From assembly GCA_003512825.1 (NCBI GenBank), contig DOOI01000200.1, positions 1 to 30,840 of the forward strand: a DNA stretch of 30,840 nt. The letters are read 5' to 3'. This document shows positions 6,457 through 23,851 of the stretch, one piece after another. The notes below the pieces were generated by a model. That model made no database searches, had not been told where the DNA came from, and saw only the letters and a list, made by a program, of their open reading frames with translations. Numbering within the stretch: the first letter of the stretch is position 1; every line of letters starts with the position of its first letter. The stretch comes from Paracoccaceae bacterium (GTDB lineage Bacteria > Pseudomonadota > Alphaproteobacteria > Rhodobacterales > Rhodobacteraceae). The position numbers and the translations under genes are program-made.

Positions 6457-6521
6457 GCAATTTCTTGCAAGAAATTGCCAATTTCCCTGCAGGGAAATTC
6501 CGATTTCCTTGCAAGGAAATC
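6457..6521. repeat. Triple TGCA-centred palindrome array, copy 1
   Basis: Three perfect palindromes follow each other: 6457-6478 (22 bp, half-site TTTCTTG), 6480-6499 (20 bp, half-site TTTCCCTG) and 6502-6521 (20 bp, half-site TTTCCTTG). Every centre is TGCA, and the centres (6467.5, 6489.5, 6511.5) are exactly 22 bp apart. The array begins 14 bp after the alkB stop codon. As RNA it would fold into three hairpins with UGCA loops. As DNA it offers three dimer sites on roughly the same helix face. A second array lies at 19526-19590. Confidence 0.9.
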
Positions 6522-6548: not shown

Positions 6549-6625
6549 GGTTAACGCGTCAGCGCCGTCTTTGCGCGTCATGACGCAAGCCAGACGCCAA
6601 CCAGACGCGGATCATACGTGAAAAA
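6549..6625. repeat. Dispersed intergenic element with 11-bp iterations, copy A
   Basis: The stretch starts GGTTAACGC, contains the palindrome CGTCATGACG (6576-6585), then three consecutive 11-mers: TGACGCAAGCC (6581-6591), AGACGCCAACC (6592-6602) and AGACGCGGATC (6603-6613). It ends in CATACGTGAAAA. The same ordered blocks recur at 22848-22907 with two 11-mers. It lies between the convergent alkB and cobO genes, where no promoter is needed for either. Together with the palindrome array it accounts for most of the 252-bp gap 6444-6695. Confidence 0.7.
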
Positions 6626-18615: not shown

Positions 18616-19506
18616 ATGCGGAAATTCGCCCTTGTCTCAGTGCCCTATTTTTGGCTCCTGATCCTCTTTTTGGTGCCGTTCCTGATCGTGCTGAAAATCA
18701 GCCTGTCTGACACGGCTCTGGCGATCCCGCCCTATACGCCGACCCTCGATCTGGCCGAAGGCTGGGCCGGGATCAAAGCCTTCTTTGCCGGGCTTGATTT
18801 CGAAAATTTCACCTTCCTCACCGAAGATCCGCTGTATTGGAAAGCGTATTTCTCCTCGCTGCAAATCGCGACGATCTCCACCACGCTGGCGCTCCTTGTC
18901 GGTTTTCCCATTGCATATGGCATGGCTCAAGCGCCCGATGAATGGCGCACCACGCTGATGATGCTGGTGATCTTGCCGTTCTGGACATCCTTTCTCATTC
19001 GCGTCTACGCATGGATCGGCATTCTCTCGACCGAGGGATTTCTCAATCAGTTCCTGATCTGGATCGGGGTGATTGATACGCCCTTGATCATCATGAACAC
19101 TAAAATCGCCGTCTATATCGGCATCGTGTATACCTATCTGCCGTTCATGATCCTGCCGATCTATGCCGCTTTGGAAAAACTCGACAACTCGCTCCTTGAA
19201 GCAGCCGAAGATCTTGGCTGCACCCGCACGCGGGCCTTCTGGCTGCTCACCGTTCCCCTCTCCAGACCGGGGATTATCGCGGGATGCTTCCTCGTCTTTA
19301 TTCCCGCCTTGGGCGAATTTGTGATCCCCTCGCTCTTGGGCGGCTCCGAGACGCTGATGATAGGCAAGATCCTTTGGGAGGAGTTTTTCAACAACCGCGA
19401 CTGGCCCGTAGCCTCGGCCGTGGCTGTGGTGCTGCTGGCAATCTTGATCATTCCAATCATCCTGTTCCAACGGAACGAACAAAAACAGCGCGAGGCCGGG
19501 AAATGA
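18616..19506 (+). CDS. Putrescine-type ABC importer permease (PotH-like)
   Basis: Inner-membrane permease, 296 residues, the usual PotH length. The first helix is SVPYFWLLILFLVPFLIVLKISL. The core has TLMMLVILPFWTSFLIRVYAWIGIL and the EAA loop NSLLEAAEDLGCTRTRAFWLLTVPLSRPGIIAG. The start ATG at 18616 has GGGGGGAG seven bases upstream, 13 bp after the ATPase stop. An upstream in-frame stretch reaching back to 18232 is a shadow of the ATPase gene. It is followed by the second TGCA palindrome array before the partner permease. Confidence 0.92.
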   Translation: MRKFALVSVPYFWLLILFLVPFLIVLKISLSDTALAIPPYTPTLDLAEGWAGIKAFFAGLDFENFTFLTEDPLYWKAYFSSLQIATISTTLALLVGFPIAYGMAQAPDEWRTTLMMLVILPFWTSFLIRVYAWIGILSTEGFLNQFLIWIGVIDTPLIIMNTKIAVYIGIVYTYLPFMILPIYAALEKLDNSLLEAAEDLGCTRTRAFWLLTVPLSRPGIIAGCFLVFIPALGEFVIPSLLGGSETLMIGKILWEEFFNNRDWPVASAVAVVLLAILIIPIILFQRNEQKQREAGK

Positions 19507-19525
19507 CCCAACCGTCCCTCCCCCC

Positions 19526-19590
19526 CGGAATTTTGCAAAATTCCGCCAGCGTTTCTTGCAAGAAACGCGAAAATCCCTTGCAAGGGATTT
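19526..19590. repeat. Triple TGCA-centred palindrome array, copy 2
   Basis: Three perfect 20-bp palindromes: 19526-19545 (half-site GGAATTTTG), 19549-19568 (half-site GTTTCTTG) and 19571-19590 (half-site AATCCCTTG). All are centred on TGCA, with centres at 19535.5, 19558.5 and 19580.5, that is 23 and 22 bp apart. The array starts 20 bp after the PotH-like stop codon, inside the operon, and fills most of the 112-bp gap before the next permease. The half-sites vary while internal symmetry is perfect, which implies selection on the symmetry. Same architecture as 6457-6521. Confidence 0.9.
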
Positions 19591-19618
19591 CGCCCCTCGT
19601 GGCACGAAAGGCGCGCGC

Positions 19619-20440
19619 ATGAGACGGTTCACTTGGTTCAACGCCACCTCGCTCACCCTGGGCTTTGCCTTCCTTTACATGCCCATGGTCATCTTGGTGA
19701 TCTATTCGTTCAACGAATCCAAACTCGTAACCGTCTGGGCTGGGTTTTCCACCAAATGGTATGGGGAGTTGATGCAAAACCAAGCCTTCCTCGATGCCGC
19801 TTGGGTCACGCTCAAAGTTGGCGTTGCCGCCTCCACTCTCGCCACCGTGCTGGGCACCATGGCGGCCCTCGTGCTGGTTCGCGCCGGGCGGTTTCCCGGC
19901 CGCACCCTGTTTTCCGGCATGATCTACGCCCCCCTTGTGATGCCCGAAGTCATCACAGGCCTCTCACTGCTTCTCCTCTTCATTTCCCTTGGCGTCGATC
20001 GCGGTGTCTTTACCATCATCCTCGCCCATACCACCTTCGCGATGTGCTATGTTTCTGTCGTGGTCTCCTCCCGCCTTGTCACCTTCGATCAATCCCTCGA
20101 AGAAGCGGCGCTGGATTTGGGGTGCTCTGCCTTCACAGCCTTCCGTCTGGTCACTCTGCCAATCATCGCCCCCGCTGTGGTGTCAGGCTGGCTCCTTGCC
20201 TTTACGCTCTCGCTGGATGATCTCGTCATCGCCTCGTTTACCGCAGGCCCCTCTGCGACAACCTTGCCGATCAAGATCTTCTCCGCCGTCCGCCTCGGCG
20301 TCTCGCCAGAAATCAACGCGCTTTGTACGCTCATGATCGCCATCGTCGCAATTGGGGTCATCGGCACTTCCATCGGCACCAAACGCGCCGCCCTTCGCCA
20401 AAAACGCGACGAGCAAGCCGCCGCCCGCGCCACTGGTTAA
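19619..20440 (+). CDS. Putrescine-type ABC importer permease (PotI-like)
   Basis: Partner inner-membrane permease, 273 residues. The first helix is TLGFAFLYMPMVILVIYSFN, followed by ESKLVTVWAGFSTKWYGELM, a segment typical of PotI/PotC. APLVMPEVITGLSLLLLFISLG marks the central helices, and the EAA loop is QSLEEAALDLGCSAFTAFRLVTLPIIAPAVVSG. TLSLDDLVIASFTAGPSATTLP is also typical. The start is ATG at 19619, preceded by AAAGG seven bases upstream. The longer frame from 19556 would translate the palindrome array and is rejected. It ends 4 bp before the oxidase gene. Confidence 0.92.
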   Translation: MRRFTWFNATSLTLGFAFLYMPMVILVIYSFNESKLVTVWAGFSTKWYGELMQNQAFLDAAWVTLKVGVAASTLATVLGTMAALVLVRAGRFPGRTLFSGMIYAPLVMPEVITGLSLLLLFISLGVDRGVFTIILAHTTFAMCYVSVVVSSRLVTFDQSLEEAALDLGCSAFTAFRLVTLPIIAPAVVSGWLLAFTLSLDDLVIASFTAGPSATTLPIKIFSAVRLGVSPEINALCTLMIAIVAIGVIGTSIGTKRAALRQKRDEQAAARATG

Positions 20441-23029: not shown

Positions 23030-23851
23030 TCACCGCCGCGCGCCCCAAGACAGCGACGCCGCCCGACGCGTGTAAAACTCACCCAATAGCCCGATCACCA
23101 GAAAAATAATTCCCATGTAGATCGCATACATCACCGACGAATACCGGGGCTCATAATTGAGAAACACAAACCCACGGCTTTGATCGATAATATGGAAAAG
23201 CGGGTTCCAATCGAACATGTCGCGCATATAGCCCGGCAGCGTATTGGCCACGAACATCTTGCCTGACGCGATCATGTTTGCCCGCTGATACACCGTCGAC
23301 AACACCCCCACCGCGCCGGGGTTCCATGGCTTGAGCGCCAGAAAAACCATCCCCAACGCCAGCCCGGTAAACCACGCAACAAGCAGCATCCCAAACGCTG
23401 CAACGGGCTGTTCAATCTCGAAAGGCACGATGGTGTAATAGACAAACAAAATCGCAAACAGCGATAAAACCTGAATATAAAGGGCTCCGAACGCCGCCGA
23501 GAGGATGGCCACAATCGTATTCATCGGCGCGTGCTGCATCATCGGGCTTGACGGGCCCTCCGCTCCGGCAACCGCGCCCAAGGTCTTCGCATGCGTCATG
23601 TACAAAAACACGCCCGACATGATGTAGAGCAGGAAATCCCCGCGAATGGCTGTGCGGCGCAGGCCCAAAAGGTCGAACATGATGTAGAAGGCCAGCACAA
23701 AAATGATGGCCTGCATCATGTTGGTCAAAATCGACATCAACGCATTTCCATGCGACTTTCGCACGGATCGCACCACCCCGTGGTAGACCAATTCAAACAG
23801 CGTAAACGCTGAGGCCAGAAAATTGCGGTTGGTGGAACGTGTTTGAAACAT
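23030..23851 (-). CDS. Polysaccharide export ABC permease (KpsM/Wzm-like, ABC-2 type)
   Basis: Inner-membrane channel subunit of an ABC-2 exporter for capsule or O-antigen-type polysaccharide, 273 residues with about six membrane segments (for example MMQAIIFVLAFYIMFDLLGL and IMSGVFLYMTHAKTLGAVAGAEG). The C-terminal half has the family segment LPGYMRDMFDWNPLFHIIDQSRGFVFLNY, matching the NPL-H-I-xxxR pattern of KpsM/Wzm proteins. The ATG start is at 23849-23851. No KpsT/Wzt ATPase gene lies next to it in this window, so the partner must be elsewhere. It diverges from cysQ-kdsB, consistent with a KDO-linked capsule locus. Confidence 0.85.
   Translation of the reverse strand: MFQTRSTNRNFLASAFTLFELVYHGVVRSVRKSHGNALMSILTNMMQAIIFVLAFYIMFDLLGLRRTAIRGDFLLYIMSGVFLYMTHAKTLGAVAGAEGPSSPMMQHAPMNTIVAILSAAFGALYIQVLSLFAILFVYYTIVPFEIEQPVAAFGMLLVAWFTGLALGMVFLALKPWNPGAVGVLSTVYQRANMIASGKMFVANTLPGYMRDMFDWNPLFHIIDQSRGFVFLNYEPRYSSVMYAIYMGIIFLVIGLLGEFYTRRAASLSWGARR

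Follow-up and report, generated by a model that had tools for sequence, protein, structure and literature searches.

A clade-restricted family of tandem, loop-less palindromes located mostly just past stop codons in Rhodobacteraceae

Between two permease genes in a polyamine-type transporter gene row of a Paracoccaceae bacterium lie three palindromes in tandem, and the locus raises the question of what kind of element this is, how it came to be there, and whether it serves the genes beside it. We followed this question in the whole stretch of DNA analysed (30,840 nt of contig DOOI01000200.1, assembly GCA_003512825.1; hereafter the window), in the rest of the genome (G000), and in related genomes. 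The features concerned are as follows:

6458 to 6521, no strand: first array, three palindromes with spacings of 22 and 22, between convergent AlkB-like (+) and CobO-like (-) genes
18616 to 19506, + strand: potH-like ABC permease gene (gene call), 5' of the second array, stop codon TGA at 19504 to 19506
19507 to 19618, + strand: 112-nt stretch missing in congeners G001, G002 and G003 (congener comparison)
19526 to 19545, no strand: palindrome 1, CGGAATTTTGCAAAATTCCG, 10 of 10 pairs
19549 to 19568, no strand: palindrome 2, GCGTTTCTTGCAAGAAACGC, 10 of 10 pairs
19571 to 19590, no strand: palindrome 3, AAATCCCTTGCAAGGGATTT, 10 of 10 pairs
19619 to 20440, + strand: potI-like ABC permease gene (gene call), 3' of the array

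The potH-potI array (19526 to 19590) consists of three perfect 20-bp palindromes with TTGCAA centers, spaced 23 and 22 bp center to center, exactly as the original prediction had described it. Its first base lies 19 nt past the potH-like stop codon and its last base 28 nt before the potI-like start. Both flanking genes match Pfam BPD_transp_1 (1.4e-16 and 2.9e-12), and their top NCBIfam matches are PotH (395 bits, under a cut-off of 489) and PotI (326 bits, under a cut-off of 476). The gene row also includes potG-like and potF-like genes; PotH, PotI, PotG, and PotF scores all fall under the NCBIfam equivalog cut-offs, and the ATPase clears the potA subfamily cut-off. At the first array, the middle palindrome has the center CTGCAG, and the NCBIfam match of the adjacent AlkB-like gene is under its cut-off. 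A short repeated motif, CATGACGCAAGCCAGACGC..CCAGACGC, occurs 3' of two arrays in this genome, at 6577 to 6619 of the window and past a GlnD-like gene (L174), and a stretch resembling it also lies 3' of the GlnD-like gene in two array-less congeners (L305 and L312). Elsewhere in the window, positions 23136 to 23287 (+) match the Rfam family Cis2_sRNA (RF02645) at 69.4 bits against a gathering score of 50.

The original prediction had counted two arrays, a number that proved far too low: the 3.0-Mb G000 assembly (223 contigs, 82% complete) holds at least 16, and while the arms vary between arrays, each palindrome is still symmetric. A pattern of three TGCA cores at the observed spacing matched 22 places in G000, compared to a single match for a reversed control pattern; of the 20 that were read, 14 were triples of near-perfect palindromes and 6 were not, and the verified set comprises these 14 triples and two arrays of two palindromes. 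When any center was accepted in a scan of 422 kb of G000, all 11 palindrome clusters found were of the array type and three mononucleotide shuffles yielded none, although this sample was chosen partly for array-bearing contigs and therefore gauges the type of cluster rather than its density. In the common design, two to five near-perfect palindromes of 20 bp with the core TTGCAA follow one another in tandem, the pitch being mostly 22 to 23 bp. Genes referred to here as HADH, ExoIII, UbiH, TldD, lpd, GlnD, fabD-fabG, carboxylase, SDR, and thiolase carry names that we presume from the look of their sequences rather than from family searches.

The palindromes share a consensus arm, (C/A)A(G/A)NN(C/T)C followed by TTGCAA, and within it vary widely, with 39 different 7-nt arms among 48 palindromes of G000 and 54 among 83 of the Roseicyclus group. 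To describe pairing we used 158 tandem cores chosen by spacing alone, with arms unselected (41 from G000 and 117 from the Roseicyclus group). No mismatch was present in pairs 4 to 9 of 149 of these cores (37 of 41 and 112 of 117, respectively); the remaining four in G000 have 3 to 5 mismatches and are chance-like, and the remainder in the Roseicyclus group comprises four with one mismatch and one with four. Pairing intermediates are thus almost missing. Isolated TTGCAA cores are chance-like, with only 9 of 132 in G000 and 1 of 25 elsewhere free of mismatches. Each of pairs 4 to 9 is paired in 153 to 157 of the 158 cores, compared to averages of 42 to 102 after column shuffling, while the outermost pair, 10, is paired in 136. 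G.T (G.U in RNA) pairs are scarce, occupying 2 of 948 cells across pairs 4 to 9. Symmetry also extends through the center: with the center unselected, the central 4 nt were self-complementary in 27 of 28, 62 of 66, and 17 of 17 array palindromes, compared to 5 of 17, 20 of 64, and 4 of 7 isolated inverted repeats obtained by the same arm rule. Even among the centers in Roseibacterium persicicum that are not TGCA, 9 of 13 are self-complementary and 4 are not; the symmetric centers include TGCA, TCGA, GCGC, and CCGG.

R. persicicum also carries a second tandem-palindrome family with arms like CGGAAAAC / GTTTTCCG and a pitch of about 23, at L198 4750, L201 9303, L203 5525, L265 17568, L271 3508, L272 1082, and L273 14880. 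Its arms are half-conserved, and its center varies (CTGCAG, CTCGAG, CGCGCG, or CCCGGG) while remaining mostly symmetric.

Arrays occupy a narrow position relative to genes. According to a home-made codon-based gene caller, retrained for a genome of 71% GC, 24 of 28 arrays in two samples follow a stop codon at a distance of no more than 20 nt, where random intergenic placement would give 9 to 10%. Sixteen of these 28 have tandem neighbors, 11 convergent, and 1 divergent, against null expectations of 10 to 11% convergent and 25 to 30% divergent; for the 16 verified G000 arrays the figures are 9, 6, and 1. At the place of the divergent array of G000 (L165 16394), a congener has a palindrome-free region of comparable length, which is too diverged for a call between insertion and decay. 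Arrays also sit within operon-looking gene pairs, among them potH-potI and one that resembles fabD-fabG.

Comparison with congeners reveals that this lineage carries the potH-potI array and that the three congeners examined lack it. In G001, G002, and G003 (PotI identity of 94, 94, and 83%) the junction has no array, and the two genes meet in an ATGA stop/start overlap. Gain is the simpler reading here than loss, since the overlap is found in all three congeners, and the empty junction lends support to the alternative raised in the original prediction, that a short repeat had been inserted. ATGA flanks the insert on both sides, in this one case only, and this is also accounted for by the need for both a stop and a start codon. 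At the ExoIII-like gene, the convergent gap of 88 nt in G000 compares with gaps of 4, 4, and 2 nt in the congeners; past the lpd-like gene, G003 shows, by eye, a hairpin and then a T-run where G000 carries an array. More broadly, we traced ten genes flanking G000 arrays into the congeners and found no array at 27 junctions inspected by eye, with synteny lost at some (L165, L177, and one L173 ortholog) and left synteny lacking at the first array of the window; a scan of 52 congener loci likewise recovered no array.

A different picture emerges around R. persicicum, where nine arrays with ten flanking genes were traced into G042 to G044 and orthologs were read wherever the locus was returned. 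At six gene ends the array was kept in all 12 orthologs read (HADH, 2; L199, 3; L202, 3; L203, 2; L209, 1; L210, 1; further L209 and L210 matches were left unread), and the number of palindromes was equal across orthologs except at L203, where G041 has five and the other genomes have four. At three other gene ends (L206, L208, and, from the second family, L265), none of the eight orthologs read had an array; neighboring genes differ at L206 and L208, and no clean empty site was seen there. In the six aligned ortholog sets, with only the last three palindromes of L203 included, 33 of 230 pairs vary, and 22 of these are Watson-Crick in all genomes compared; 8 of the 11 that are mismatched in at least one genome are the outermost pair. 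The constraint on pairing proposed in the original prediction is therefore borne out. The comparison of orthologous junctions it had envisaged, in which presence or absence with a clean junction would speak for mobility and conserved presence for function, gave the first result at potH-potI and the second at other genes in the Roseicyclus group; each of the two alternatives thus has evidence, and they are compatible.

Among seven homologs in G000 of R. persicicum array genes, six lack an array and only that of HADH has one. An array directly follows a 3-hydroxyacyl-CoA dehydrogenase-like gene both in G000 (L165 4946) and in R. persicicum (L195 5440), with different arms. After the same gene in congeners G002 and G003, no array is present. 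We do not read the common position as shared descent; a rough estimate gives about 0.3 chance coincidences.

The array family is dispersed within genomes and restricted to few clades. The strict triple pattern matched 1 of 41 genomes (G000 and 40 relatives, the three congeners among them), namely G000 itself, and in a family-wide search with one genome per genus it again matched only G000, with 294 of 295 genera lacking it. Among 61 genomes around R. persicicum, it matched 4, all from the Roseicyclus/Roseibacterium group (41 matches in R. persicicum KMU-115, and 33, 31, and 34 in the others, where one four-palindrome array scores as two), and none of the other 57. A looser two-core pattern was found at 1, 2, and 1 places in the three congeners and at 62 to 86 in G041 to G044. 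In named genomes, among the matches listed (117 stretches), 10 carry palindrome arrays of this kind, and all 10 of those belong to Roseicyclus, R. persicicum, or Rhodobacterales bacterium HKCCSP123; L071 and L097, also among the matches listed, show weak two-unit clusters. As to spread by phage, the stricter core pattern had no match in viral contigs, a narrow test on which this route was rejected.

How the arrays relate to known systems can be judged from several resemblances. REP elements are short extragenic palindromes 3' of genes. Like the REP, BIME, and REPIN sequences of enterobacteria, Pseudomonas, and other bacteria, the arrays are many-copy short extragenic palindromes 3' of genes, often in rows. 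REP/BIME sequences have a conserved stem, whereas in the arrays the core is conserved and the stem varies, as the arm counts above demonstrate, and the arrays further differ in that their units, two to five in number, are loop-less palindromes set at a 22- to 23-bp pitch. A GTAG/GTGG foot occurs in 1 of 49 G000 palindromes (2%, background 8%) and in 14 of 84 from the Roseicyclus group (17%, background 10%) and is not general. Searches for RAYT (Y1_Tnp) found no match in eight genomes, of which G000 is incomplete; a control search gave matches in 5 out of 14 known genomes, Escherichia coli among them. A RAYT-driven REP was rejected on these two grounds. Compensatory changes have been reported in REPIN spacers (PMC3116915), and perfect palindromes with a 3- to 4-nt loop in some REPs (PMC8266576).

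The arrays also resemble intercistronic mRNA-protecting hairpins of the malE-malF type, which are stable, lie between operon genes, and have no U-tract; E. coli operon hairpins without a U-tract are reported to protect upstream genes and not to terminate (PMC5927463). The hairpins described there come operon by operon, whereas the arrays form a genome-wide family of one design by which messages, we infer, may be protected. With intrinsic terminators they share inverted repeats right after stop codons, as seen in their predicted folds and placement, but they lack the U-tract. Inverted repeats past gene ends are common in bacteria and mostly have a 4-bp spacer, unlike the arrays, which are symmetric through the center; the portion of that study available makes no mention of tandem spacer-less arrays (PMC13155455). 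Concerted compensatory changes further recall hairpins maintained by template switching, but that study concerns stems of rRNA and found compensatory changes accompanied by loop inversion to be extremely rare, and the arrays have symmetric centers (PMC8794818). Of the marks of MITEs, ATGA on both sides was seen at potH-potI only, and arms differ between copies (flanks compared by eye). The arrays are neither REP elements by membership nor canonical terminators, and since a conserved stem, a general GTAG foot, and a RAYT match in the eight genomes searched were lacking for the former and a U-tract for the latter, we file them as a variant of dispersed 3' palindromic repeats. A literature search over open-access sources, with most subscription papers lacking, found no published description matching the array family.

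The reading we tentatively favor, while stopping just short of calling it probable, is that the array works as a REP/BIME-like 3' hairpin barrier by which the message 5' of it is stabilized and potI is freed from its coupling to potH. Each palindrome in the transcript is predicted to fold into a short hairpin with a UGCA or UUGCAA loop, with median single-hairpin energies of -8.1 and -10.4 kcal/mol. Three hairpins are predicted for the potH-potI array, with a modest z of -2.49 (2 of 200 shuffles as good), and the best predicted fold of the first array joins palindromes 2 and 3 (z of -5.74 versus shuffles). A row of such hairpins at a 3' end would halt 3'-5' exonucleases and so shield the upstream message, and because each palindrome is identical on both strands, a single array could serve both of two convergent genes. 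At potH-potI, the array would in addition undo the translational coupling through ATGA, and potI expression would fall relative to that of potH. A role in setting the ratio of the two permeases, as put forward in the original prediction, is plausible because this coupling would be lost. In favor of the barrier are the placement close to stop codons, the pairing found in cores whose arms were unselected, the compensated changes and retained arrays at orthologous gene ends, predicted folds that are better than shuffles, and the absence of a U-tract, as in the E. coli operon hairpins above. Some observations count against the barrier: one of the 16 G000 arrays is divergent, congeners manage without arrays, six of the seven G000 homologs of R. 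persicicum array genes have none, the fold at potH-potI is only modestly better than shuffles, and the first array is not predicted to form three separate hairpins in its best structure. Others count against a plain RNA reading, namely, the scarcity of G.U pairs, which an RNA stem alone should tolerate, and the symmetric centers, which exceed what a hairpin loop requires. Both could be explained by strand-equivalence or by some form of copying, for instance template switching. A more speculative and unlikely extension is that dyad symmetry rather than sequence is inherited, the arms being rewritten jointly, perhaps by hairpin-templated copying (template switching), and the TTGCAA core being read by some factor or through loop-loop kissing; joint rewriting would keep perfect palindromes of ever-new sequence at gene ends, with intermediates hardly visible.

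Other explanations account for parts of these data. The arrays may be selfish dispersed elements of a MITE-like or hairpin-transposing kind, which would simply put up with a place behind stop codons, keep their symmetry because they move or are copied as hairpins, and have no host role. The empty potH-potI site in all three congeners, the ATGA flanks of the insert, and the short ExoIII-like gaps fit this, as do near-identical R. persicicum arrays at L209 8007 and 19131 and an array at L199 with a similar palindrome order in reverse orientation. We nevertheless consider it rather unlikely: no Y1_Tnp/RAYT gene was found in the eight genomes searched, viral contigs had no match to the stricter core pattern, a target duplication would rest on a single case in which the need for stop and start also gives ATGA, and some orthologous arrays persist through the Roseicyclus group with compensated changes. 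Quite unlikely, in our assessment, is a role at the DNA level, in which the dyad itself, lying between transcription units, would form a cruciform, take up supercoiling, or be bound by a dimer. Its appeal is that varying centers mostly remain self-complementary, that G.T pairs are scarce, that 22 to 23 bp approximates two helical turns, and that convergent pairs are enriched; a protein site, however, leaves the equal symmetry of the least conserved arm positions unexplained, strict placement at stop codons fits RNA better, and arms of 9 to 10 bp are short for cruciform extrusion. Ordinary operator sites were rejected on the same ground, symmetry being undiminished at the least conserved positions.

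Tandem intrinsic (Rho-independent) terminators would explain the 3' placement and the hairpins, and the hairpin with a T-run that G003 shows after the lpd-like gene is in keeping with them. We consider them very improbable, as in all 53 array-and-direction cases the 15 nt downstream contain no T-run longer than 2, and arrays occur inside operon-like pairs; the canonical terminator was rejected for its absent U-tract. Chance or an assembly artefact has a next to negligible probability, despite the fragmentation and incompleteness of G000, since shuffled sequence gave no clusters and the same family recurs in independent named genomes, isolates included; that recurrence excludes the artefact that the original prediction had named as its refutation.

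These arrays offer, in each genome, many natural stem variants with a common core and pitch, located at defined gene ends and with empty sister sites. This makes it testable whether perfect pairing owes its persistence to selection or to a copying mechanism, and what effect a 3' array has on mRNA decay. If the proposed mechanism is true, the family would show that REP-like 3' elements can arise along a route for which no known RAYT is required.
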